IMG/VR virus record: IMGVR_UViG_3300033994_002787
Coordinates: 1 to 27,018 of that record
Direction: 5' to 3' (one strand)
Origin: a virus
Length of the DNA: 27,018 bases
A model generated the notes under the pieces. The model had not been told where the DNA came from and searched no databases. It was given only the letters and a program-made list of their open reading frames with translations. Position numbers and translations under genes: made by a program. Position 1 is the stretch's first letter; each line of letters opens with the position of its first letter. Of this stretch, positions 2,634-27,018 are shown in pieces.

Positions 2634-3167
2634 TCATCGGCCAAGTCTCATCCCCGGACTGGGGGCGTACTTGCCGAAGTGCCACTTGGCAAAGTAACGC
2701 TCGTGTTCCCGCACGATGTAAGGCAAGTGCGGCTCGTCGAGCAAGTCGGCTGCCAACTCAATAATGAGGTCGTTGGGAGCAAACGGTCGCGTTGCGGGGT
2801 GAATGTCCGCAAGGGTACGGGCTGCCTCGGCGGGATCTACCCCGCGAGCCACGAGTACGGTAACGGCTGCGGCGGTGGACCGGCTGATGCCCATGTGGCA
2901 GTGAATCAGCATGTCCTCGCCGTTGGCGCGTCCAAACTCGATGATTCGCTCTACATCCTGCCGCTGGGGGCGGCGTGGGTGGCGAGGATCGATCGTGTCG
3001 GCAAATGGCAGCACGAGATGGTTCGCGTGTCCGAAGTCGGCTTCCGTGAAAGAGGGGCCAACTGTCAGGACGGCGGGGAAGTGCGGAGCAAGTGCTCGCG
3101 CTTCCTCGATGCTGCGCACCGTCGGCGCAACGGTAACGCCGTTGCTGGCGGTTGCTAGTTGTGTCAT
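2634..3167 (-). CDS. Tyrosine/dual-specificity phosphatase-like protein A, 177 aa
   Basis: It contains the protein-tyrosine-phosphatase signature HCHMGISRS, i.e. C-X5-R, with the nucleophile at about Cys90 and Arg96. An Asp in LPFADT (about residue 57) is a candidate general acid. Such enzymes remove phosphate from Tyr, or Ser/Thr, in proteins, or from small phosphoesters; the substrate here is unknown. The start ATG at 3167 follows GGGAGGTG and the control module at 3188-3224; a longer frame beginning at 3257 runs through that promoter and is rejected. Two paralogs lie at 5473-6027 and 24144-24671, sharing VGPS/AGPT, NHxxxxFxD, the signature and an IHPxxRPFxPN block. Confidence 0.9.
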   Translation of the reverse strand: MTQLATASNGVTVAPTVRSIEEARALAPHFPAVLTVGPSFTEADFGHANHLVLPFADTIDPRHPRRPQRQDVERIIEFGRANGEDMLIHCHMGISRSTAAAVTVLVARGVDPAEAARTLADIHPATRPFAPNDLIIELAADLLDEPHLPYIVREHERYFAKWHFGKYAPSPGMRLGR

Positions 3168-3187
3168 GTAATCACCTCCCTTATGTC

Positions 3188-3224
3188 TAGTAGTTGTAAT
3201 GATGGTACCACATTGCTGTGACAA
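3188..3224 (-). promoter_or_regulatory. Shared-class promoter for phosphatase A
   Basis: Minus strand: TTGTCACAGC (3224-3215), TACCAT (3207-3202), AACTACTA (3195-3188), then GGGAGGTG. No good -35 is found 17 bp upstream of the -10, so the TTGTCACA box itself is probably the key upstream element. Confidence 0.7.
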
Positions 3225-3252
3225 AAAGAAATCCAAAAAAAACTGGGAATCG

Positions 3253-3277
3253 CGCACGAAACGAAACGTTCCGTGCG
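3253..3277. promoter_or_regulatory. Inverted repeat upstream of the 56-aa gene
   Basis: CGCACGAAACG and CGTTCCGTGCG form an 11-position stem with one A/C mismatch on the plus strand (G-T on the minus strand) and a 3-nt spacer. It is followed by TGCGACTACCTAATGAAG. A similar block (CGCACGAAATG…TGCGACTAGTAAGTAAAG) precedes the isolated gene at 9027, so this is a candidate operator or promoter region for these small plus-strand genes. Confidence 0.5.
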
Positions 3278-3321: not shown

Positions 3322-3492
3322 ATGATTGACACCGAACTGCTCGAGACGTACCGGTTCTACAAGAGCGAACGGGCCGAAGCCCTCGCCAACGGAGAACGGT
3401 ACCGGGCCTCCTTCGCCCGCGAGGCGTTGGAGATCATCGAGGGGATCTTCGCCGATGCGGCGGAGCGGTCGTTCGGCCAGCGGGCCGTCTGA
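3322..3492 (+). CDS. Small helical protein, 56 aa, unknown function
   Basis: The ATG at 3322 follows a near-perfect ribosome site, GGGAGGAGGTGAAAC. The product starts MIDTELLETYRFYKSERAEA, contains ASFAREALEIIEGIFADAAE and is predicted from composition to be an alternation of charged helices. It is a lone plus-strand gene among minus-strand genes and ends in the strong hairpin 3531-3566. The last eleven codons and the terminator are duplicated exactly at the left edge of the window. The gene at 9027-9155 has the same position, size class and upstream motifs. No family recognised. Confidence 0.75.
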   Translation: MIDTELLETYRFYKSERAEALANGERYRASFAREALEIIEGIFADAAERSFGQRAV

Positions 3493-3571
3493 CCCCCCTG
3501 TCTCCCTGTTAGGCCGACCCGAAGCGGCACCAGCGGCCCCCGGTCCTCCTCCGCCGGGGGCCGCTGCGCGT
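3456..3571 (+). repeat. 116-bp perfect direct repeat, copy 2
   Basis: Identical to 1-116. It contains the last codons of the 56-aa gene and its terminator. The two copies diverge after base 3571. Confidence 0.9.
3531..3566 (+). terminator. Terminator of the 56-aa gene
   Basis: The same 13-bp perfect GC stem and 10-nt loop as at 76-111, 38 bases after the stop codon. Confidence 0.75.
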
Positions 3572-3816
3572 CTCGGCCACCCACACCCCAAACCTTCGCA
3601 CACCCCCACCGAACAGGCGGAAGCGCGTCCGGACCCAAAACAAACGAGCCGAATCGGCAAAACCGCCGACAGGTCTCGGCGCAGCGACGCTTCAGCAAGG
3701 TGGGCGAGCGCAGCGAACCCGACGGGTGGCGGCCCGAGCCCCGCAACAGATCAAAACAAAAAACAAAGAAAAGCCCCGCCAAACTCCCACACCCCAACGG
3801 GACTAAAAAGTTTGAT
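3572..3816. other. Intergenic region, no gene seen
   Basis: No frame with a credible ribosome site. A-rich and C-rich on the plus strand near 3745-3800. It holds an AGCCCCGCAACAGA element at 3737-3750, related to the 20-bp repeat at 2450 and 9264. Confidence 0.4.
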
Positions 3817-3841
3817 GCCCTCGAGGTTGCTTCTCGAGGGC
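3817..3841 (-). terminator. Rho-independent-type terminator of the candidate small RNA
   Basis: GCCCTCGAG / CTCGAGGGC form a perfect 9-bp stem around GTTGCTT. On the minus strand it is followed by ATCAAACTTTTTAG, a short spacer and then five T. This orientation fits ending the transcript begun near 3964. Confidence 0.65.
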
Positions 3842-3964
3842 TGGTAGTTTTGCAGGGGCCAGTGTCTGCTTCTGTCAAGTCATCGAAAAACACCAGTCCG
3901 ACGGGCGGAGGTCTGAACATTGTGACGGCGTACAGGACCCGCCGGACCGGCGTTTTCGATAACG
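3817..3964 (-). ncRNA. Candidate structured small RNA, about 150 nt
   Basis: Seen: on the minus strand, a promoter TTGACA-17-CATAAT ends at 3971, so transcription should start near 3964. Four bases later begins a 23-bp stem: arm 3960-3938 pairs with arm 3905-3882, with a single bulged U and a 32-nt loop (3937-3906). The three positions where the arms are not Watson-Crick are all G-U pairs in minus-strand RNA but would be C-A mismatches in plus-strand RNA, so the pairing supports a minus-strand transcript. The transcript ends at the hairpin 3841-3817. There is no convincing reading frame inside. It is not recognised as a known RNA family; function unknown. Confidence 0.6.
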
Positions 3965-3970
3965 GGGACG

Positions 3971-3999
3971 ATTATGGCAGGTCGGCTTACTGCTGTCAA
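3971..3999 (-). promoter_or_regulatory. Near-consensus promoter of the candidate small RNA
   Basis: Minus strand: TTGACA (3999-3994), 17-bp spacer (3993-3977), CATAAT (3976-3971). This is one of the closest matches to a sigma-70/SigA consensus in the window. The -35 region lies in a 12-bp sequence (CTGTCAAGTCAT, plus strand) at 3993-4004 that recurs at 3872-3883 inside the RNA. Confidence 0.75.
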
Positions 4000-4036
4000 G
4001 TCATTCCTCGCACTTTGCAGGTGGTTGGCAAGATTG

Positions 4037-4279
4037 TCAGCCGACAAGGGCGGCGTAGATTGCCGCCCTTGCCGTGGCCAGACCCTCGCTCAGATTCACA
4101 AGGTCAATAAACCCCTCACCCGCCGGCGTGGAATCAGCCAGCATTTCGTCCTCGGTTCGCCACGCGGACCACGAGAACGACTGGGAGTAAGGTCCACCCC
4201 AGTGGATCAGCCAGTTTTCGCCGATCCACGTTTCTGACCCGTTGGGCCACCGGGTGTGGTTCGTATCTAGTCGGTGCAT
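4037..4279 (-). CDS. Small Trp-rich protein, 80 aa, unknown function
   Basis: The ATG at 4279 (MHRLDTNHTRWPNGSETWIG) follows GAGGAGGTGAACA and the control module at 4295-4334. The first half has six tryptophans and reads like a small beta domain (WLIHWGGPYSQSFSWSAW). The second half is helical (SEGLATARAAIYAALVG). It has no cysteines or membrane segment. It is the last gene before the small-RNA locus; its stop lies 38 bases before that promoter. No family recognised. Confidence 0.75.
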   Translation of the reverse strand: MHRLDTNHTRWPNGSETWIGENWLIHWGGPYSQSFSWSAWRTEDEMLADSTPAGEGFIDLVNLSEGLATARAAIYAALVG

Positions 4280-5472: not shown

Positions 5473-6027
5473 TCACCGGACTCCAAGTTTCAGTTTCGGG
5501 TTCGGTGCGTACTTCAACGGGTGCAACTGCTTGAAGATCTGTCCAACGTAACGCTCGTGGCTAATGACCAGTTCAGGAAGGTCCGGCAGGTCAAACATCT
5601 CTGCCGTTATCGCCACGATTAGGTCGTTCGGCACGAAAGGGCGTCCCTCGGGGTGAACGGCGACCAACGCCTTTACGGCAACCTCGGGATCGACGTTTCG
5701 GGCAAGCAGGATCGCTAGTGCGGATGCCGTGGAACGGCTGATGCCGGCGTGGCAATGGACGAGGATGGGGCCGAGGTCGGCGGCACCAACCTCCACAATC
5801 CTGTCCACGTGCTGGCGGCGTGGCCGGCGCGGGTCGGTGATTCTTGTGGTGTCCGCGAACGGCAGAACGACATGGTTGGGGTGGTTGAACCCCGCAACGT
5901 CGTGGCCCGACGGGCCTACGGTGAGCACCAGCGGGTACTCGGCCGCAATGGCCTTTGCCTCGCTGAGGCTTCGCACGGTAGGCACGGTTACGGTGTCCCC
6001 CGTGCGGTTCAGAACGGTAGCGGTCAT
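5473..6027 (-). CDS. Tyrosine/dual-specificity phosphatase-like protein B, 184 aa
   Basis: Signature HCHAGISRS with Cys92 and Arg98 (C-X5-R); LPFADT near residue 55-60 supplies a candidate general acid. It is closely similar to phosphatase A over its whole length, including VRSxxEAxAxAxxxPxVLTVGPS and the C-terminal KYAPxPxxxLG, so the two are probably duplicates from one ancestor. The start ATG at 6027 follows AAGGAGTGCGTC and the module at 6046-6082. Whether it acts on host proteins, for example on actinobacterial Ser/Thr/Tyr kinases' targets, is not shown by the sequence. Confidence 0.9.
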   Translation of the reverse strand: MTATVLNRTGDTVTVPTVRSLSEAKAIAAEYPLVLTVGPSGHDVAGFNHPNHVVLPFADTTRITDPRRPRRQHVDRIVEVGAADLGPILVHCHAGISRSTASALAILLARNVDPEVAVKALVAVHPEGRPFVPNDLIVAITAEMFDLPDLPELVISHERYVGQIFKQLHPLKYAPNPKLKLGVR

Positions 6028-8408: not shown

Positions 8409-8597
8409 ATCTGGCACCAGAACAACCGAGCAAACCAAAACAAAACAAAACAGCAGACCCACAAACGCAAGCCCCCCTCGCCAGCGGCCCCGCAAAAAAG
8501 CCTCAGAAAACCAGTCCCGCAACGACCACACAACAGCGGGACGCTTGCAGCCCCTCGGCCCAATGCGAAACGGGACCCCCCCAGTCGGATTGCGCGA
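8409..8597. other. Intergenic region, no gene seen
   Basis: A-rich and C-rich on the plus strand next to the promoter (repeated CAAAA units at about 8438-8452), then GC-rich. No frame with a ribosome site. It may supply an AT-rich upstream element to the promoter at 8366-8408 (inference). Confidence 0.35.
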
Positions 8598-8642: not shown

Positions 8643-8855
8643 TCAGTAATCGTCGTCCCACCTTTCACCCGCATAATACGGGTCAAAGTCGGCGGGGGCG
8701 TTTACGGGGTACCGCTCCCGAATGGCCTGATCGCGTTCGATGGCCTCGTCAAGGTGGTGGATGCATCGGGGGAACGCCTGTCCACTGCCCGAAACATCGT
8801 AGTAGGTCACTTCGCCGCGACAATCGCCGTCGCCGTAGTCGTTTATACACTGCAT
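8643..8855 (-). CDS. Small Cys/His-containing protein, 70 aa
   Basis: MQCINDYGDGDCRGEVTYYD … FPRCIHHLDEAIERDQAIRE, ending ADFDPYYAGERWDDDY. Small proteins with a C…C…GxxFPRCxxH core and a C-terminal DFDPxYAGERW are common in actinobacterial phages as I remember them; their function is unknown. Three Cys and two His could bind a metal. The ATG at 8855 follows GGGGAGGTGAACA and the module 8875-8910; a strong terminator follows the stop. Confidence 0.85.
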   Translation of the reverse strand: MQCINDYGDGDCRGEVTYYDVSGSGQAFPRCIHHLDEAIERDQAIRERYPVNAPADFDPYYAGERWDDDY

Positions 8856-8874
8856 TGTTCACCTCCCCTGTCGT

Positions 8875-8910
8875 TAGTAGTTACCAATACAGTACCAGCC
8901 GGCTGTGACA
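8875..8910 (-). promoter_or_regulatory. Shared-class promoter for 8643-8855
   Basis: Minus strand: TGTCACAGC (8910-8902), TACTGT (8894-8889), AACTACTA (8882-8875), then GGGGAGGTG. Confidence 0.7.
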
Positions 8911-8929
8911 TCAATAAATCTGGAACCTG

Positions 8930-8970
8930 CCGCACGAAATGGGTCCATTGTTGCGACTAGTAAGTAAAGG
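8930..8970 (+). promoter_or_regulatory. Control region of the 42-aa gene, related to 3253-3290
   Basis: CGCACGAAATGG…CCATTGTTGCG followed by CGACTAGTAAGTAAAG. The block upstream of the 56-aa gene reads CGCACGAAACG…CGTTCCGTGCG followed by CGACTACCTAATGAAG. The match suggests a shared, separate type of control for the isolated plus-strand genes. Confidence 0.4.
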
Positions 8971-9026
8971 GGGCGATCAACTCGCCCGCATCCGACTACC
9001 ACCCACCGTCGCAAGGAGGTGAACGC

Positions 9027-19683: not shown

Positions 19684-21138
19684 TCAGTCAGCGTCGTCGA
19701 ACAGGGTCGGCGTAGTGTCGGCGGCCTGTTCCTCGGCCCACGCCACCCGGCCTTCGATGATCGGCAGGTAGTCGTCGGTCATTTCGATCCCGATGGCGTC
19801 GAAGCCCTCTAGCACTGCGGCGACGAGGGTGGTGCCGGACCCGGCGAACGGGTCTAGGACGGTGCCACCGGGCGGGGTGACGAGGCGCACCAGCCACCGC
19901 ATGAGGGCGACGGGCTTCACGGTCGGGTGATGGTTGGACTGTTTGGCAACGCCCTTCTCCTCGAAGGTTCCCTTGCCGGTGGTCGAGCGTGTGTCGGGCC
20001 GCTGTTCCGGTAGCCCGTCGAGTCCGGCGTTGCGTTCCCGCTTGCTCGGCTTCGCCACATACCGGAACGGCGCGACGTCAGCGGTCGGGTCCCACTCGGT
20101 GACCGTGAAGAAACGGGACGCCCCGCCGGTGTCGCCGTAGCCGGCCGTGGTTGCGTTTCGTCGCCCGCTTGCAAACGCAGTCGTCGAGCCGTTGCTATTG
20201 CTAGTGGCACCGGGCCGTTCCCCGCTCTGCCCGTCCAGTTCGGCCACCGGGCAACCGTCAGCGCACGCCCACACCGGCACCTTGACCGTTTTGCCCGTGA
20301 ACCCGTCACCAGACTCGTACCCGTCCACAAACCCGGACGTGGCGTTGGCTCCACCGCCGAACGTGTCGTCGGTTGCCCCGACCTGCTCACAGTCGGCGGC
20401 GTGGGTGAACACAAGGTTGGCAGGCCAGCGGCCGGCGGGATTGCCGGTGCTGACATAGCGACCACCCGGCGACTCGTTGCCCCAGTCCATCGGCTGCGGC
20501 ATAGTGCCTTGTGGTCGGCCCAGCTCGTCACTGGTCCCGACCCGGCACCCGTCGATGTTCAGCGCCCCCGTGCCATACGCCAGCACGTTCCCCGCCACCG
20601 TCCCCACCAGCGGCTTGCGGGCGACGACGATCGGTTCGTGGGCAGGCTTGAGCGCTGTGCCCCAGCCTGACCATTGGCGGGCGGCGTCGGTGGCGGGGGC
20701 GGTCACTGGGACTTCCTGCTGGCCGCCGTTCCACCCCTCATCGGTGCGGGCCTTGCCCGTAACCTTGCTGCCCACCACTTCACGCTCAGCCCCCGCCATC
20801 TTGTCAATGGCCTTGCTCACGTCCAGCGACTTCGGGAACCCGGACCCGTACACCCAATGCAGGCTGTCCCGTATGTCGAACCCGGCGTCCTCAATAGCGA
20901 CGGTCATACGGTGGTAGGTGCGGGTGGCACCGAACGCGAGCAGGTGACCGCCCGGCTTCAACACGCGCAGGCACTCGGTCCACACCTCGGGTTGCCCGGC
21001 GATGCCGTCGGCTGCGTCCCACGCCTTGCCCATAAAGCCGATGAGGTAGGGCGGGTCGGTGACAATGGAGTCCACGCTGGCGTCAGGCATTGACGCCAAC
21101 ACGTCCAAACAGTCGCCGTGCCGCAACGTCACCGTCAC
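19684..21138 (-). CDS. DNA methyltransferase 1 (DPPY, beta class), 484 aa
   Basis: Motif IV DPPY at residues 28-31 near the N-terminus and motif I DPFAGSGTT (about 429-437) near the C-terminus give the beta-class order (N6_N4_Mtase). DPPY favours N6-adenine. It transfers methyl from S-adenosylmethionine to DNA. The large middle (about 110-340), rich in Gly and with WACADGCPVAELDGQSGERP, probably holds the target-recognition region. GTG start at 21138 overlaps the stop of the paralog upstream (GTGA). No restriction enzyme lies next to it, so it is probably an orphan protecting phage DNA. Confidence 0.93.
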   Translation of the reverse strand: MTVTLRHGDCLDVLASMPDASVDSIVTDPPYLIGFMGKAWDAADGIAGQPEVWTECLRVLKPGGHLLAFGATRTYHRMTVAIEDAGFDIRDSLHWVYGSGFPKSLDVSKAIDKMAGAEREVVGSKVTGKARTDEGWNGGQQEVPVTAPATDAARQWSGWGTALKPAHEPIVVARKPLVGTVAGNVLAYGTGALNIDGCRVGTSDELGRPQGTMPQPMDWGNESPGGRYVSTGNPAGRWPANLVFTHAADCEQVGATDDTFGGGANATSGFVDGYESGDGFTGKTVKVPVWACADGCPVAELDGQSGERPGATSNSNGSTTAFASGRRNATTAGYGDTGGASRFFTVTEWDPTADVAPFRYVAKPSKRERNAGLDGLPEQRPDTRSTTGKGTFEEKGVAKQSNHHPTVKPVALMRWLVRLVTPPGGTVLDPFAGSGTTLVAAVLEGFDAIGIEMTDDYLPIIEGRVAWAEEQAADTTPTLFDDAD

Positions 21139-22724
21139 GGATCACCACCAAGCGACGTGACCCTGACCCCTTGCCCAGCGTCGTCAAACAGGGTCGGGGT
21201 CATCTTGTCGGCCTGTTGTTCAGCCCACGCCACCCGCCCCTCAATGATCGGCAGGTAGTCGTCGGTCATCTCAATGCCGATGGCGTCGAACCCTTCAAGG
21301 GTGGCGGCGACGAGGGTGGTGCCGGACCCGGTGAACGGGTCGAGGACGGTGCCGCCGGGCGGGGTGACGAGGCGCACGAGCCAGCGCATCAAGGCGACAG
21401 GCTTCACGGTGGGGTGATGATTGACCTTGGCTGCGTTGCTCCGGTTGCGCGGATTGTCGCCACCAACACCGTCAGCCTTTGCTCGGTCGGCCTCTCGCTT
21501 CCCCGGCAGCCCGTCCAGTCCGGCGTTGCGTTCCCGCTTGCTCGGCTTGGCGACATACCGGAACGGGGCCACGTCAGCGATAGGGTCCCATTCGGTGACG
21601 GTGAAGAAGCGGGAAGCGCCGCCAGTGTCGGCATAGTTCTGAAACTCCACCGGCCTGTTGTTGTGTTTGTTCCAGCCGTTGTTTTGTCCAAGGGCGGTCG
21701 GGCTGGAAACGGTCACGCCTGTTCCGCTCTTACTGACCCCACTCTGCCCGTCCAGTTCCGCCACCGGGCAACCGTCGGCGCACCGCCACACGGCGACAGT
21801 CTCGGTGCCGTCGCCATTTCCGGACGGTCGGTTGCCAGTCGGGTCCGGCTGACCGGCACCAAAACCGGTTGCCACACCCGCACCACGCTGGGCTGGGTAA
21901 TACCCGGACGCTTTCACGTCGGTGGTGCCCACCTGACAGCAGTCGGCGGCGTGGGTGAACACAAGGTTGGCGGGCCATCTCCCTCCGCTGGTGTCGGGGC
22001 GCTCAACCTCAACTCGCCCAGCGTCATCAACGTCAGGCGCTGCGCCCGCCGCCTTGTTGCTTGTCACCCGCCCTTGCGGCGTGGCGCTTGCACGGTCAGC
22101 GTCGGAGCGATGCGCTACCCGACACCCGTCGATGTTGAGTGCCCCGGTGCTGTGGGCCAACACGTTGGCGGCGACGGTGCCGGTTAGGGGTTTGCGGGCG
22201 ACGACGATGGGTTCGTGGGCGGGTTTTAGGGCGGTGCCCCAGCCTGACCACTGGCGGGCGGCGTCAGTGGCAGGGGCGGTGATGTCAGCCTCAACCTCAA
22301 CCCGTTCCCCCATCCGCAGTTCGTAAGACGTTCCGCCACCGTTGACGTAGGTCTTGGTGCCCACCACTTCACGCTTGGCACCCGCTGCCTTGTCAATCGC
22401 CTTGCTCACGTCCAACGACTTCGGAAACCCCGACCCGTACAACCAATGCAGGCTGTCGCGAATCTCAAACCCGGCGTCCTCAATGGCGACCGCCATGCGG
22501 TGATACGTGCGTGTCCCACCGAAGGCCAGTAGATGCCCGCCCGGCTTCAACACCCGAAGCGCCTCGGTCCACAGGTTGACGTTGTAGGCGATGCCCGAAC
22601 CGTCCCACGCCTTACCCATGAACCCGAGTTCATACGGCGGGTCCGTGACGATGGCATCCACGCTGGCGTCAGGCATTGACGCCAACACGTCCAAGCAGTC
22701 GCCGTGCCGCAACGTCACCGTCAT
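21135..22724 (-). CDS. DNA methyltransferase 2 (paralog of 1), 529 aa
   Basis: DPPY at residues 28-31 and DPFTGSGTT near residue 460, beta class as in its neighbour. The first 100 and last 150 residues are nearly the same as in methyltransferase 1; the middle, including KASGYYPAQRGAGVATGFGA, differs strongly and is longer. That pattern suggests a tandem duplication that kept the catalytic parts and changed target specificity. ATG 22724 (MTVTLRHGDCLDVLASMPDA) is aligned to the start of the paralog; the longer frame upstream is rejected. It has GAGGA upstream. Confidence 0.93.
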   Translation of the reverse strand: MTVTLRHGDCLDVLASMPDASVDAIVTDPPYELGFMGKAWDGSGIAYNVNLWTEALRVLKPGGHLLAFGGTRTYHRMAVAIEDAGFEIRDSLHWLYGSGFPKSLDVSKAIDKAAGAKREVVGTKTYVNGGGTSYELRMGERVEVEADITAPATDAARQWSGWGTALKPAHEPIVVARKPLTGTVAANVLAHSTGALNIDGCRVAHRSDADRASATPQGRVTSNKAAGAAPDVDDAGRVEVERPDTSGGRWPANLVFTHAADCCQVGTTDVKASGYYPAQRGAGVATGFGAGQPDPTGNRPSGNGDGTETVAVWRCADGCPVAELDGQSGVSKSGTGVTVSSPTALGQNNGWNKHNNRPVEFQNYADTGGASRFFTVTEWDPIADVAPFRYVAKPSKRERNAGLDGLPGKREADRAKADGVGGDNPRNRSNAAKVNHHPTVKPVALMRWLVRLVTPPGGTVLDPFTGSGTTLVAATLEGFDAIGIEMTDDYLPIIEGRVAWAEQQADKMTPTLFDDAGQGVRVTSLGGDP

Positions 22725-22843
22725 CGCCAACACATCCTCAAAATCTGGCAACCAAGCATTCCGCAGCCTTTTACAAGCAAACAATACCCAACAACCGCAA
22801 ACGTTAGCAGCCGTGGACGCCACAGGCGACCACTATTTCGGTC

Positions 22844-22856
22844 TAGCGTTTCACCC
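22844..22856 (+). promoter_or_regulatory. -10 box for a leaderless start at 22857
   Basis: TAGCGT (22844-22849) is followed by 7 nt and GTG 22857. No ribosome site; no good -35 seen. Confidence 0.35.
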
Positions 22857-23480
22857 GTGGACCCCTACGGCACCCCAACAGAAAAGATCGCTTTAGTGGC
22901 AGGAGCGACACGAGTCGCCAAACAAGAGATGGTCACCGAAGAGGGCATCGGCGAAGACTTGCCATTCTCGCTAATGGTGTGGCGAGAAGCACTCCTCACC
23001 GCCGTATGCCAACTCGAAGCAACCATGCGGGACGAAGAACCCGGCGAACGCCTCACCCGCACACTGCAAGCGGCAGCCGCCTGTCGTCAAGGCTTTGACG
23101 CCACCTCCTTCACTTTCGTGACAGAAGGATTCTGCGCCACCGACCCCGACGCCATAGACCCCGACGTCCCTCTAGCCGCACAGTTCGTCACCAACCACGA
23201 AGTGCGAGAATGCTTGACAATCACGCACATCGAAGCAGGCAACATCTACCTTTCCGCTCTCCCCTACCACTACGAAATCGGACGACAAGTCAAATGGGAC
23301 AAGCCATTGCACTACGACCCAATCTTCCCCACAAGCAACCAGTTCCTAACATCAATGACAGAAATCCTGCTCCGCGACCTGCACAACCAAACCCCCAACG
23401 ACAAATGGCGGGACGCCACCGCAGAAGAAGTCAGCCGCTGGGGATTCCACATCCAGTACGACCTAGAGGCAGACCAATAA
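22857..23480 (+). CDS. Unknown protein, 207 aa, AC-rich gene
   Basis: The GTG at 22857 (MDPYGTPTEKIALVAGATRV) is chosen because it lies 7 nt after a -10-like box and because upstream codons overlap the divergent methyltransferase promoter. Helical first half with ERLTRTLQAAAACRQGFDAT; second half with AGNIYLSALPYHYEIGRQVK and ILLRDLHNQTPNDKW. No membrane segment and no recognised domain. Codon choice becomes strongly A and C rich towards the 3' end, unlike most of the window. Confidence 0.7.
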   Translation: MDPYGTPTEKIALVAGATRVAKQEMVTEEGIGEDLPFSLMVWREALLTAVCQLEATMRDEEPGERLTRTLQAAAACRQGFDATSFTFVTEGFCATDPDAIDPDVPLAAQFVTNHEVRECLTITHIEAGNIYLSALPYHYEIGRQVKWDKPLHYDPIFPTSNQFLTSMTEILLRDLHNQTPNDKWRDATAEEVSRWGFHIQYDLEADQ

Positions 23481-23614
23481 ACCACCCACCCCCCCCAACA
23501 ACCCCCACCAACACAAACAAAAAGCAAACGAAGCAGCAAACAAAACACGCCCAACACCCAACAAACACAACGCCCCACACACGCAACCATCACAACACGC
23601 ACAGCGGGACTTTT
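23481..23614. other. AC-rich non-coding tract
   Basis: After the stop the plus strand is almost only A and C for about 130 bases, with long C runs. No gene is seen. It leads into the hairpin 23615-23653, after which the plus strand turns to G and T. Confidence 0.7.
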
Positions 23615-23653
23615 GCCCAACAGGCCGAAGCGGGGGGGAGGGCCTGTGTGGGC
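23615..23653. terminator. Convergent terminator at the composition switch
   Basis: GCCCAACAGGCC pairs with GGCCTGTGTGGGC (about 12 bp, one bulge) around a G-rich loop. On the plus strand it is followed by CGTTGTTGTGTGTTTTTGG. Confidence 0.6.
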
Positions 23654-23672
23654 CGTTGTTGTGTGTTTTTGG

Positions 23673-24032
23673 TTAGATTTCTTTGGGGGGGGTGTGTTGT
23701 GGGGTGAGGAGGAGTGCGGCGGTGAGTAGGTGTTTTTCTGCGGCGGTTTGGTTGGCGGTTTGGGTTGGTGTGGTGTTGGGGAGGCGTCGGGTGTATATGG
23801 CTGCTGCGTAGGCGTGGTAGGCCGGGTTTTTGGTTTTTTGTAGGTTGGCGAGGCTTTGGTTGGGGGGTGTTGTGGTGTCGTGTTGGGCGAGGTGTTTGAG
23901 GGCGGTTTTGCAGTGGGTTTGTGCGGGGTGGTTGGGGATGCGTTTGATGAGGTCGTTGATGATTGTGATTGCTGTTTGTGTGCTGCCGGGGATTTTGGGT
24001 TTGTTCATAGTGTTGCGGTTAGATTTGTCCAT
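23673..24032 (-). CDS. Unknown protein, 119 aa, G/T-depleted gene
   Basis: MDKSNRNTMNKPKIPGSTQT, AITIINDLIKRIPNHPAQTH, …, ending LLTPQHTPPKEI. The coding strand is mostly A and C, giving many Thr, Pro, Asn, Lys, Gln and His codons and almost no Gly or Val. Helical segments (QTAAEKHLLTAALLL) are present. An ATG at 24008 is an alternative start. It overlaps the upstream 42-aa gene by 14 nt, third in the operon with phosphatase C. No family recognised; the regular helices and lack of stops support a real gene. Confidence 0.65.
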   Translation of the reverse strand: MDKSNRNTMNKPKIPGSTQTAITIINDLIKRIPNHPAQTHCKTALKHLAQHDTTTPPNQSLANLQKTKNPAYHAYAAAIYTRRLPNTTPTQTANQTAAEKHLLTAALLLTPQHTPPKEI

Positions 24033-24147
24033 TGGAGGGCTTTCGTGGTGTCCGGTAGTCTTGGGTGTGTCCGCACGCCCGACACTCCCAGTACCGGCCG
24101 TATTTGTCGGTTCGCAGGACGCGTCGGGTGTGCGTGCACTTTTTCAT
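24019..24147 (-). CDS. Tiny zinc-knuckle protein, 42 aa
   Basis: MKKCTHTRRVLRTDKYGRYW, ECRACGHTQDYRTPRKPSNG, QI. CTH and CRACGH together give a Cys/His zinc site of the small phage type. ATG 24147 overlaps the TGA of phosphatase C (ATGA), so the two are translated together, and its end overlaps the next gene. The function is unknown; small size and basic charge suggest nucleic-acid contact. Confidence 0.65.
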   Translation of the reverse strand: MKKCTHTRRVLRTDKYGRYWECRACGHTQDYRTPRKPSNGQI

Positions 24148-24671
24148 AGGTAGTCCCCGTAGAAGGGTCCGTCGTATTCGTAGTTTTCGGCCAGTTTCGG
24201 GAGGTTCGGCACCCCGTACCGCTCACCAATGAATCCAAGGATGAGGGGGTTGGGGATGAACGCTCTACCGATTGGGTGAATTTCTGACAGGGTTTCTAAA
24301 GCCTCGATGGCGTCAACGCCGCGAGCCAGCAGTACGCCAATGGCTGTGGCCGTGGATCGGCTCATTCCTGCGTGGCAGTGGATGAGCAACGGTCCGGTTT
24401 GCTTGGCCCCAAATTCTACAAGTTGCAAAGCCGCTGAAGCGGTTGGCGAATAAGACGACTTGTGGGTTACGTCGTCAAAGGTTCGGATGAGGTGATTGGG
24501 GTGGCCGAAGTTTGCTTCTTTGCGGGTGGGGCCGGCGGTGATTACCGCAGGGAACTCGCGGGCAAGGATGCGTGCTTCTCGCAAGTTGACCACGGTTGGC
24601 ACGATGGTGGTGCCACCGTCGATCGTGTCCACTTCGTAGGTTTCGGTTAGGGATGTAGGTGTTTTTTGCAT
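24144..24671 (-). CDS. Tyrosine/dual-specificity phosphatase-like protein C, 175 aa
   Basis: Signature HCHAGMSRS with Cys99 and Arg105 (C-X5-R). NHLIRTFDD (about 59-67) supplies the candidate general acid, and EIHPIGRAFIPN matches the block found in paralogs A and B. It is more diverged than A and B are from each other and has a longer N-terminus with a small insertion KSSYSPTAS in place of the HPRRPQR basic segment. ATG 24671 follows AAAGGAAACCAAT and the start-associated box at 24688-24695. It heads a three-gene operon. Confidence 0.9.
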   Translation of the reverse strand: MQKTPTSLTETYEVDTIDGGTTIVPTVVNLREARILAREFPAVITAGPTRKEANFGHPNHLIRTFDDVTHKSSYSPTASAALQLVEFGAKQTGPLLIHCHAGMSRSTATAIGVLLARGVDAIEALETLSEIHPIGRAFIPNPLILGFIGERYGVPNLPKLAENYEYDGPFYGDYL

Positions 24672-24687
24672 ATTGGTTTCCTTTTTT

Positions 24688-24705
24688 TAGTAGGTATTAG
24701 CCATA
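24688..24705 (-). promoter_or_regulatory. Start-associated box and possible -10 for phosphatase C
   Basis: Minus strand: TATGGC (24705-24700), then ACCTACTA (24695-24688) and AAAGGA. The TTGTCACACC box is missing and no good -35 is placed at 17 bp. A further promoter-like TTTACA-16-TAGTAT lies upstream near 24740-24770. Confidence 0.5.
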
Positions 24706-24832
24706 CAAGCGGAGAGGGTATTATGGAGTGAACACCCCATACTAGGACGTACCCAAAAGTTGTAAATCTAAATAATTGGGGACTGCCGCCTCAACTTGCT
24801 GAATGCGATTCTACGGTCTTGGCTTGCCCGTG

Positions 24833-25570
24833 TCAAGCCCGATCCCAATCGTACAGGTCGCAACCGATACCAAACCGATCGAGACTTTCGGCGACCTCGA
24901 CCGTGGTTCCTGACCCAACGAACGGATCAAGCACGATGTCCCCCACATTGCTAGTCAGCGGAATGCACCGGTTGGGCAGTTCGTACGGGAAGGGCGCCAA
25001 ATGGTTCCTTCCTTGCGCAGGAGGGAAATGCCAGACATTGCCACGCTCGACTAGCCGGTCAGGGAAAAAACGGTGATTGCGTGTCTTGGCGAGCATAAAA
25101 ATAAACTCACTGGAAACCCCCGGGCGGCGGGCGTGACGCAAGTCCTCGGGCCGCAGCCGACCCTTGTTCCACGTTACGCAGGACCGGTAAAGCCAGTCAC
25201 GCTCAACGAATACCTCTACGATTCTGTGGGGCAGATTAAGCCACTGCATGGGTGCCCGCCCTGACGCTCCTTGCCGCCATCGCGGTTTGCCGTCCTTGCT
25301 GCCTCCTCGGTTGTAGTCGCCGCCGGCCCCTCCTGAGCCACTAGCGGTGTCGCCAAGGTTGAGCCACAACACCCCGCCGTCGTCAAGGAGTCGCCACCAT
25401 TCGGTGGCGCAGGCGGCCATGTCCTCAAGGTACGTATCGATGTCGCCACGCCCAATTTCTTGAGGGTCGTCCCCGTAGGCCCTTAGACCGAAATAAGGGG
25501 GAGATGTGACAATGGTTTGTACGCTGCGATCCACTAGCGGAATGTTGGCGGCATGGCAATTTATGAGCAT
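24833..25570 (-). CDS. DNA methyltransferase 3 (TSPPY, N4-cytosine type), 245 aa
   Basis: TSPPY at residues 22-26 (motif IV) and DPFVGSGTT near residue 217 (motif I) give the beta-class order; SPPY is the usual form in N4-cytosine enzymes. Also present: LRPEDLRHARRPGVSSEFIF and PLTSNVGDIVLDPF. It is compact, with a short recognition region, as in enzymes of type II systems. The ATG overlaps the end of the PD-(D/E)XK gene upstream by 10 nt, so the two are translated as a pair. There is little similarity to methyltransferases 1 and 2 outside the motifs. Confidence 0.92.
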   Translation of the reverse strand: MLINCHAANIPLVDRSVQTIVTSPPYFGLRAYGDDPQEIGRGDIDTYLEDMAACATEWWRLLDDGGVLWLNLGDTASGSGGAGGDYNRGGSKDGKPRWRQGASGRAPMQWLNLPHRIVEVFVERDWLYRSCVTWNKGRLRPEDLRHARRPGVSSEFIFMLAKTRNHRFFPDRLVERGNVWHFPPAQGRNHLAPFPYELPNRCIPLTSNVGDIVLDPFVGSGTTVEVAESLDRFGIGCDLYDWDRA

Positions 25571-26121
25571 GGCGCCCCTTGTGGAACGACAGGCCCGTGC
25601 AGCGCCGAAATGGGGACGTTGCGGACTGGAATGGTGGCGCGCCAGTTATTGCGGCGATCCACCATGTCGGTCGTCCAGTGCGTTGCTTGAGCATGAAACT
25701 GCGTGTGCGGCAAAGTGCCCAACACCCACGCTCGCTCAAAGCGATCCATCCCAACCTTGCCGTTGGACAACAGTGAGACAAACAGGTACACGTCAGGGGT
25801 CTGGACCCCGTCAAGATACTCGGGGACCGAGCATTCGTAATGGGGTAAGGGCGCAACCGTCCGTTCTTTGGTTTTGACGTCTACGGTCTTCCCGTTCACA
25901 ATGAGGTCGTGGCCAATTTCCCCTGCTTCGGTGACTGTTGCCGAAAGGCTTGCAAGGTAAGCAAGCGCAACGACTTCGCCCAAAGCCCCCACCTCATTCG
26001 CCGCCCGTTTCCGCATTGAGCGCCGGTACTCCGGCCATTCGGCTGCCCGTTCGGCTGCAATGCCGAGCAGCGGAGCCACCGGAATTTCTAATGGTCGGGT
26101 AAGCCTAACGAGTGCGGTCAC
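25561..26121 (-). CDS. PD-(D/E)XK-type nuclease candidate, 186 aa
   Basis: With the GTG at 26121, which overlaps the TGA of the upstream gene (GTGA), the protein reads MTALVRLTRPLEIPVAPLLG …. It carries EVGALGEVVALAYLA (Glu43/Glu49) and GHDLIVNGKTVDVKTKE, i.e. Asp72 … Asp81-Val-Lys83, the E…D…(D/E)XK core of PD-(D/E)XK nucleases. Such folds include type II restriction enzymes and Holliday-junction resolvases. Being translated directly upstream of a TSPPY methyltransferase points to a restriction-modification pair; this is inference and the cut site is unknown. Around 190 residues is small but acceptable for a restriction enzyme. Confidence 0.72.
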   Translation of the reverse strand: MTALVRLTRPLEIPVAPLLGIAAERAAEWPEYRRSMRKRAANEVGALGEVVALAYLASLSATVTEAGEIGHDLIVNGKTVDVKTKERTVAPLPHYECSVPEYLDGVQTPDVYLFVSLLSNGKVGMDRFERAWVLGTLPHTQFHAQATHWTTDMVDRRNNWRATIPVRNVPISALHGPVVPQGAPCS

Positions 26122-26591
26122 GCAAATACCTCGGTCGCATGATGCACACGGTATGTCAAGGTCACTTTTGGATTGGGGTTCTCGAGTGCGGCATAACGGG
26201 CAACGGCTCGGCGGGCGGAACGAAGCGTGAGGTGACGGCTGACGGGGGCGCTTGCAACAAGTCGACCGCTCGGTTGCCCTGCCATGGCAGTCACCATCCA
26301 CCGGCGAAACGCGAACCGATGCCGTACCGGAGTGTAGGCCCGACGGAACTGGTCATCGGGCAAAGAGTAAAATCCGTTTACATCGCGACAGACCCAGTCC
26401 CCAATATTTGCCACTTCGTTGGCGTTAAGCAAAATGCCGGTTTCGCAAAGCATGTGCTCCTCATCGTCAAACTGAAGGTGTGGTTCGCCCATCCAAAAGT
26501 GGATTGCAGCGCATGTTTCGGCGGTGTACTGCATGGCGTCGATCGTCGTGGGGCAACTAACAAATTTTTGGGGGGGCTGCCATAGGGCCAT
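26118..26591 (-). CDS. Phage protein of the GDW/PGDYG type, 157 aa
   Basis: MALWQPPQKFVSCPTTIDAM, QYTAETCAAIHFWMGEPHLQ, then ANEVANIGDWVCRDVNGFYS and DQFRRAYTPV. The front 90 residues match a very common small phage domain (KxxVIDAxQ…GDWVxxxxxGExYxxxPDxFxxxYxPV) whose function is unknown. A second part (RHRFAFRRWMVTAMAGQPSG … RRAVARYAALENPNPKVTLT) appears to be fused to it. ATG 26591 is chosen over a TTG at 26615. It overlaps the nuclease gene (GTGA) and so forms the first gene of the three-gene operon. Confidence 0.8.
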   Translation of the reverse strand: MALWQPPQKFVSCPTTIDAMQYTAETCAAIHFWMGEPHLQFDDEEHMLCETGILLNANEVANIGDWVCRDVNGFYSLPDDQFRRAYTPVRHRFAFRRWMVTAMAGQPSGRLVASAPVSRHLTLRSARRAVARYAALENPNPKVTLTYRVHHATEVFA

Positions 26592-26631
26592 TTTGGCTTT
26601 TTCCTTTTCGTTCAAGAGTTCTCGACAAAAT

Positions 26632-26739
26632 TCAATCTTCGCCGATGTCGTCGTGTGGGATTAGCAGCGCCACTACCAAAAAAATTGCAATGCCGGCTAC
26701 TCCGATTAGTCCCACAAGCAAGATGTCCATGGCTTCCAT
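26632..26739 (-). CDS. Tiny single-pass membrane peptide, 35 aa
   Basis: MEAMDILLVGLIGVAGIAIF, LVVALLIPHDDIGED: an acidic start, about 22 hydrophobic residues, and an acidic tail, so a one-span membrane peptide. The start at 26739 is 7 nt after the -10 TAGGGT and has no ribosome site, fitting a leaderless mRNA. It is the first gene of a minus-strand run; the gene 26118-26591 follows 40 bases on. Its role is unknown: small membrane phage peptides include holins, antiholins and superinfection proteins. Confidence 0.65.
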   Translation of the reverse strand: MEAMDILLVGLIGVAGIAIFLVVALLIPHDDIGED

Positions 26740-26746
26740 GCGGATA

Positions 26747-26775
26747 ACCCTACACTCCGTGTTCGCAGGCTTCAA
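26747..26775 (-). promoter_or_regulatory. Promoter for leaderless mRNA of the 35-aa membrane peptide and operon
   Basis: Minus strand: TTGAAG (26775-26770), 17-bp spacer, TAGGGT (26752-26747), then seven bases to ATG 26739. It may also drive the nuclease-methyltransferase operon downstream. Confidence 0.7.
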
Positions 26776-26787
26776 TCATGCGCCCCA

Positions 26788-26824
26788 CCCTCCTCACCCC
26801 GATGTATGGTGACGGGGTGGAGGG
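26788..26824. other. Hairpin over the start of the last gene
   Basis: CCCTCC(TC)ACCCCG pairs with CGGGGTGGAGGG, 12 bp with a 2-nt bulge. The 11-nt loop ATGTATGGTGA carries the ATG of the plus-strand gene and a -10-like TATGGT. No upstream plus-strand gene explains it as a terminator. Confidence 0.5.
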
Positions 26825-27018
26825 CAGGAGCGAGCGTGACGAACGGATCTTAGGCGGCGAAGTTCGGCTGCTTAGGGCTAGGAACGGACCCTGCATGGTC
26901 TGCGGTCACCCTACCGGCGACTGTGCCGGCGAAATCAGCGAGCACGTGCGTGTTGTTGGCGCCGAAGTTTTTCCGTCCCTTCAGCGCGAAGATGTGTTTA
27001 TCGTTCAGGAGAACGTAT
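26802..27018 (+). CDS. Zinc-knuckle protein (3' end cut by the window)
   Basis: 72 codons are present: MYGDGVEGRSERDERILGGE, VRLLRARNGPCMVCGHPTGD, CAGEISEHVRVVGAEVFPSL …. CMVCGHPTGDC is a compact Cys/His knuckle seen in small phage proteins as I recall. ATG 26802 has no ribosome site. The in-frame GTG at 26817 lies 6 nt after TATGGT and could be a leaderless start, like the gene at 7242. The frame stays open to the window end. Confidence 0.7.
   Translation, partial: MYGDGVEGRSERDERILGGEVRLLRARNGPCMVCGHPTGDCAGEISEHVRVVGAEVFPSLQREDVFIVQENV

Follow-up and report, generated by a model that had tools for sequence, protein, structure and literature searches.

The DNA analyzed here (the window) was a 27-kb record from an uncultured virus. 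The window encoded an SSB-like protein, a helicase, an amidase, a DUF932 protein, and DPPY-type methyltransferases, and this gene content pointed to a tailed phage, probably one with an actinobacterial host. The helicase gave many tblastn matches in Gordonia and Arthrobacter phages. Relatives in IMG/VR, some of them on contigs as long as 137 kb, were gathered via the DUF932 protein and three paralogous dual-specificity-phosphatase-like proteins (positions 2634-3257, 5473-6027, and 24144-24671), which were 43-53% identical and were all encoded in this one phage fragment. A 99.7% identical contig (L002:1-9748) overlapped the window at 21149-27018 and added about 3.9 kb past its right end. At the other end, positions 1-139 and 3456-3594 formed a 97% identical direct repeat that contained the end of a small gene and a hairpin. 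Since the record began inside this repeat, its left end may reflect a break in the assembly. A recent duplication was also seen in two tandem, similar genes for DPPY-motif methyltransferase-like proteins (19684-21138 and 21135-22823), in which DNA blocks were 76-91% identical.

The locus of interest was located on the minus strand between two small genes. Upstream was an 80-aa orphan gene (4279-4037, minus strand) with a strong end hairpin of its own at about 4083-4036, and downstream was a convergent 56-aa ORF (3322-3492, plus strand) with a ribosome binding site (RBS) and an end hairpin (3531-3566). Searches for relatives of the 80-aa gene and of the 56-aa ORF found none. Features expected of a phage small non-coding RNA are the lack of a protein-coding ORF, a promoter of its own, and a defined 3' end or terminator. 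In the case of the first feature, a 187-codon ORF that spanned the element had no RBS, had a codon log-odds of -0.02 (compared to 0.13-0.39 for genes), and grouped with antisense frames; the element thus lacked a protein-coding ORF. Plus-strand ORFs across the hairpin described below (3700-4110, 3922-4110, and 3974-4237) were rejected based on their non-coding codon usage.

The promoter proposed when only the sequence had been read, TTGACA-17-CATAAT on the minus strand, was borne out by our analysis. TTGACA (3999-3994), a 17-nt spacer, and CATAAT (3976-3971) matched the sigma-70 consensus at 11 of 12 positions, and a TG one base 5' of CATAAT provided an extended -10, giving TTGACA-17-(TGc)CATAAT. 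In 100 shuffles, a TTGACA element followed after 17 nt by a -10 with five or more of six matches was expected 0.01 times per shuffled window, and 0.00 times when the extended -10 was included. By sequence match, the element therefore had its own predicted promoter.

The expected +1 of this promoter, G3963, was also the first base of a long hairpin (3963-3879, minus strand). Folding paired 3963-3937 with 3906-3879 in a helix of 27 bp, with a single bulged U (3890) and a 30-nt loop. The sequence-only reading had described the same structure but had read it short, as a 23-bp stem with a 32-nt loop, and had placed the start of the stem four bases past the transcription start rather than at about +1. 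The helix contained five G.U pairs (3961/3881, 3951/3892, 3948/3895, 3942/3901, and 3937/3906), all of which were A.C on the opposite strand; the three such positions noticed earlier were real and were the middle three. The minimum free energy of the hairpin was -42.4 kcal/mol on the minus strand versus -31.1 kcal/mol on the plus strand. This asymmetry points to selection on a minus-strand RNA. As the strand-specific evidence it had been taken for, it stood, but it left a small RNA and a terminator hairpin undistinguished.

Positions 3810-3970 had a folding z-score of -6.5, which none of 200 shuffles reached. The hairpin, also with a z-score of -6.5, ranked fourth among 3592 sliding 90-nt windows, and the lowest z-score among 1500 shuffled windows was -4.85. 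Moreover, it was the only long helix of the window with a loop of more than 10 nt. A simple stem score was weakly selective, as 1 of 40 shuffled windows equaled the score of the hairpin, and thus the case rested on the z-score, the promoter, and their placement. Elsewhere on the minus strand, a 24-bp hairpin (1169-1114) overlapped a TTGACA-17-TACCAT promoter, such that a gene-end hairpin and the next promoter shared bases.

A 12-bp sequence had been noted both in the -35 region and in the RNA. We found this sequence, ATGACTTGACAG, at 4004-3993, and a second copy of the motif at 3883-3872, which overlapped the foot of the stem and was followed by no recognizable -10 (both minus strand). In related phages GACTTGACA recurred, mostly as ATGACTTGACAG or TTGACTTGACAR, at a spacing of 16-18 nt from a -10 that was followed by a short leader, an RBS, and a start codon. 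That is, WTGACTTGACAR was the -35 of a promoter that recurred in related uncultured phages, nearly always 5' of a small gene, and the -35 of the window promoter was an exact match to it. When 29 distinct WTGACTTGACAR-type sites in the window and its relatives were compared, an RBS-preceded ORF was found within about 130 nt at 23. Two of the remaining six were the window pair, three preceded a start codon that the filter had missed (as determined by inspection), and one had no recognizable -10. The window promoter was therefore the only strong site of this type found without a gene. Because of its recurrence before the small genes of relatives, we concluded that the 12-bp repeat was the -35 element of the family and not a feature specific to the RNA. 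A second promoter-like layout, which differed from the WTGACTTGACAR type, was observed upstream of genes on the minus strand at about 3225, 8912, and 9645; it consisted of TGTCACAGC, a -10 such as TGGTACNNT, and an ACTACTA leader.

These results bear on the idea that the inverted repeat works as DNA, either as a site for recombination, replication, or protein binding or as a small mobile element with flanking direct repeats. The 12-bp direct repeats on both sides of the inverted repeat would fit such an element, but they are accounted for as -35 elements. A DNA palindrome should also be strand-neutral, whereas the five imperfect positions pair in the minus-strand RNA only, and the inverted repeat occurred once in the window. 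We consider a DNA element very improbable.

As for the 3' end, the 9-bp hairpin that had been proposed as the terminator was present at 3841-3817, but its five T nucleotides (3809-3805) started 7 nt past the stem, which is not canonical. The likelier intrinsic terminator, by prediction, was a hairpin at 3804-3772 that ran straight into TTTTCTTTGTTTTTTGTTTTG, a T-rich tract, although this region (3804-3752) may alternatively fold as a single larger stem with 3860-3853. With the terminator at 3804-3772, the predicted full RNA would have a defined 3' end and a length of about 190-200 nt. The first hairpin, with its U5 tract, could also be an end point, which would give a shorter RNA of about 80 nt. 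We rejected the first hairpin as an ordinary intrinsic terminator; the U5 tract was present, but the loop was 30 nt and a promoter was located between the gene and the hairpin.

Might the first hairpin instead be a mere terminator or 3' end stabilizer of the 80-aa gene, possibly a bidirectional one between convergent genes? Its position, with a gene on the minus strand to one side and a convergent ORF on the plus strand to the other, is suited to this role, and so is a GC-rich stem flanked by an A-tract and a U-tract. However, the loop is long, folding was much weaker on the plus strand, and a strong predicted promoter intervenes. In addition, the 80-aa gene ends in a hairpin of its own and does not need the element as a terminator. 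Thus, we judge that this explanation is improbable.

Next to the results for the window itself, we considered its relatives. An Rfam search with gathering and lax thresholds yielded nothing credible for the RNA, in agreement with the initial impression that it matched no known RNA family. The mraW RNA motif (RF01746), which scored 20.8 bits against a gathering cut-off of 50 bits, was dismissed as a generic long-hairpin match. Blastn searches of the RNA against relatives, phage records, and plasmids also found nothing credible. A covariance model of the hairpin recovered the window itself only from 0.9 Mb of relatives, and its four weak matches in 0.44 Mb of other, mostly unrelated loci (best E value 0.014) were not taken as homologues. 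Searching IMG/VR with the promoter pattern produced no matched site that led into the hairpin, and promoter-pattern matches in GTDB genomes, which were screened by the hairpin model only, included no credible hairpin relative. A 16-base exact stem pattern had 21 matches in IMG/VR, all of which lacked both the second arm and the promoter, and these were taken as chance, as were resemblances of 20-28 nt in L048 and L054. The predicted RNA, for which no homologue was found, is thus a singleton within the relatives and records searched.

Another phage, L212, was 86% identical to window positions 5363-4633 and then changed completely; the RNA was absent although it was located only 0.7 kb away in the window. 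This abrupt divergence suggested that the segment containing both the 80-aa gene and the RNA acts as an exchangeable cassette, and it makes an essential role for the RNA unlikely.

The exchange seen in L212 is also in line with the main rival to an RNA gene, a cassette relic. According to this explanation, a small protein gene was lost, its promoter became fused to its terminator hairpin (with A4/U5 flanks) and then to the -35 half of the next cassette, and any RNA would be a functionless by-product. The -35 motif does stand on both sides of the hairpin, like cassette borders, and the relatives are built as mosaics of units that each combine a promoter with a small gene. The first hairpin carries an A-tract and a U5 tract that fit a terminator too, and the G.U bias cannot separate an RNA gene from a relic because terminator hairpins are also selected as RNA. 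On the other hand, a relic would make the start of the stem at the expected +1 a coincidence, the 30-nt loop departs from the 3-10 nt loops of the other long hairpins in the window, and a separate, better terminator is present further downstream. For these three reasons we favored an RNA gene, and we regard a relic as rather unlikely.

The best reading of the locus, which we hold with slightly more confidence than doubt, is therefore that an exchangeable accessory cassette of the phage carries a promoter-driven gene for a non-coding RNA. The sequence-only reading had likewise proposed a gene for a small structured RNA with a promoter and a terminator of its own. The recurring promoter motif of the relatives lends that proposal independent support, but its terminator had been misplaced.

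In further support of this reading, at least one more unit of promoter, non-coding RNA, and terminator is present in this phage group. In a related phage, L053:8394-8690 contained a Pistol ribozyme (RF02679, 45.9 bits, 8429-8502) that started about 5 nt past the -10 of a sigma-70-like promoter. Downstream of the ribozyme came some 150 nt of structured sequence with no evident gene and then a terminator, which together give the layout of a ribozyme-led RNA unit. This unit was not found in 22 other relatives. The same contig carried a cluster of TTATCCACAGG (DnaA-box-like) and GTTCGGGTGAACAG repeats at 8848-8990, a possible replication origin.

In the few actinobacterial phages studied by RNA-seq, non-coding RNAs rank with the most abundant transcripts of infection and have no known function (PMC5712189, PMC10986025). 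For example, cluster A mycobacteriophages L5, D29, and StarStuff produce abundant non-coding RNAs from a phage promoter, including the Pleft right-end RNA and the D29 63-64 intergenic RNA (PMC5712189). The L5 RNA is about 500 nt, has no evident stem-loop terminator, and was detected by RNA-seq and Northern blot (PMC5712189), whereas the window RNA is predicted only, would be about 80-200 nt, and would begin with the 27-bp hairpin; it had no blastn match in phage records. Rhodococcus phage WC1 also has highly expressed RNAs from non-coding regions (PMC10986025). These are known from expression data, whereas the window RNA is a prediction with no sequence match in phage records. The extended start-associated sequences (ESAS) of cluster K mycobacteriophages are similar in that they, too, are imperfect, spacer-containing inverted repeats close to repeated phage motifs, but they are 17-bp repeats present in many copies just 5' of start codons (PMC3203893), and the window element is a single 27-bp hairpin that no start codon follows. 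In the case of 6S RNA, which is likewise small, structured, and of similar length, the molecule is a closed rod with a central open-promoter-like bubble. The earlier suggestion of a 6S-like RNA did not hold, since there was no Rfam match and the predicted fold was a 5' hairpin plus a separate 3' domain rather than a single closed rod with a large central bubble.

Actinobacteria typically lack Hfq. Base-pairing, the mode of action that we also propose for the window RNA, is used by small trans-acting phage RNAs such as PreS of lambda and DicF of Qin, but RNAs of this type have known targets and are mostly Hfq-dependent (PMC12197685), and for the window RNA we infer a pairing role. Its predicted features fell outside every described family, and it is a candidate new orphan of the phage small RNA kind.

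A working model for such an RNA would be as follows. A host-type sigma-70 promoter with the -35 motif of the group's small accessory genes would initiate the RNA at about 3963, the 27-bp hairpin at its very start would protect the 5' end, and the RNA would end at the terminator near 3770. With its 30-nt loop exposed by the stable hairpin, the RNA would pair with mRNA of the host or the phage in an accessory role, in the manner of other phage small RNAs. An ACCUCC in the loop would fit Shine-Dalgarno sequences. Antisense pairing of the loop with 54 candidate phage gene starts was no better than that of shuffled loops, its own complement set aside, and thus the target step is one that we infer. 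Shared use of a conserved early promoter has served to find anti-defence genes in archaeal viruses (PMC11065993), and on this precedent one may reasonably guess at an early accessory role, no more. One specific and speculative version, which we think unlikely, is that an orphan regulatory RNA in an exchangeable early cassette replaces a small protein and acts through its 30-nt loop against the host (a target mRNA, a defence system, or RNA polymerase).

RNA genes under the small-accessory-gene promoter would offer a simple route to discovery, namely, copies of the family promoter with no start codon following. If the regulatory RNA proposed here is real, then it and the Pistol-led unit of L053 would imply that RNA genes serve this phage group as interchangeable accessory cassettes beside small protein genes.
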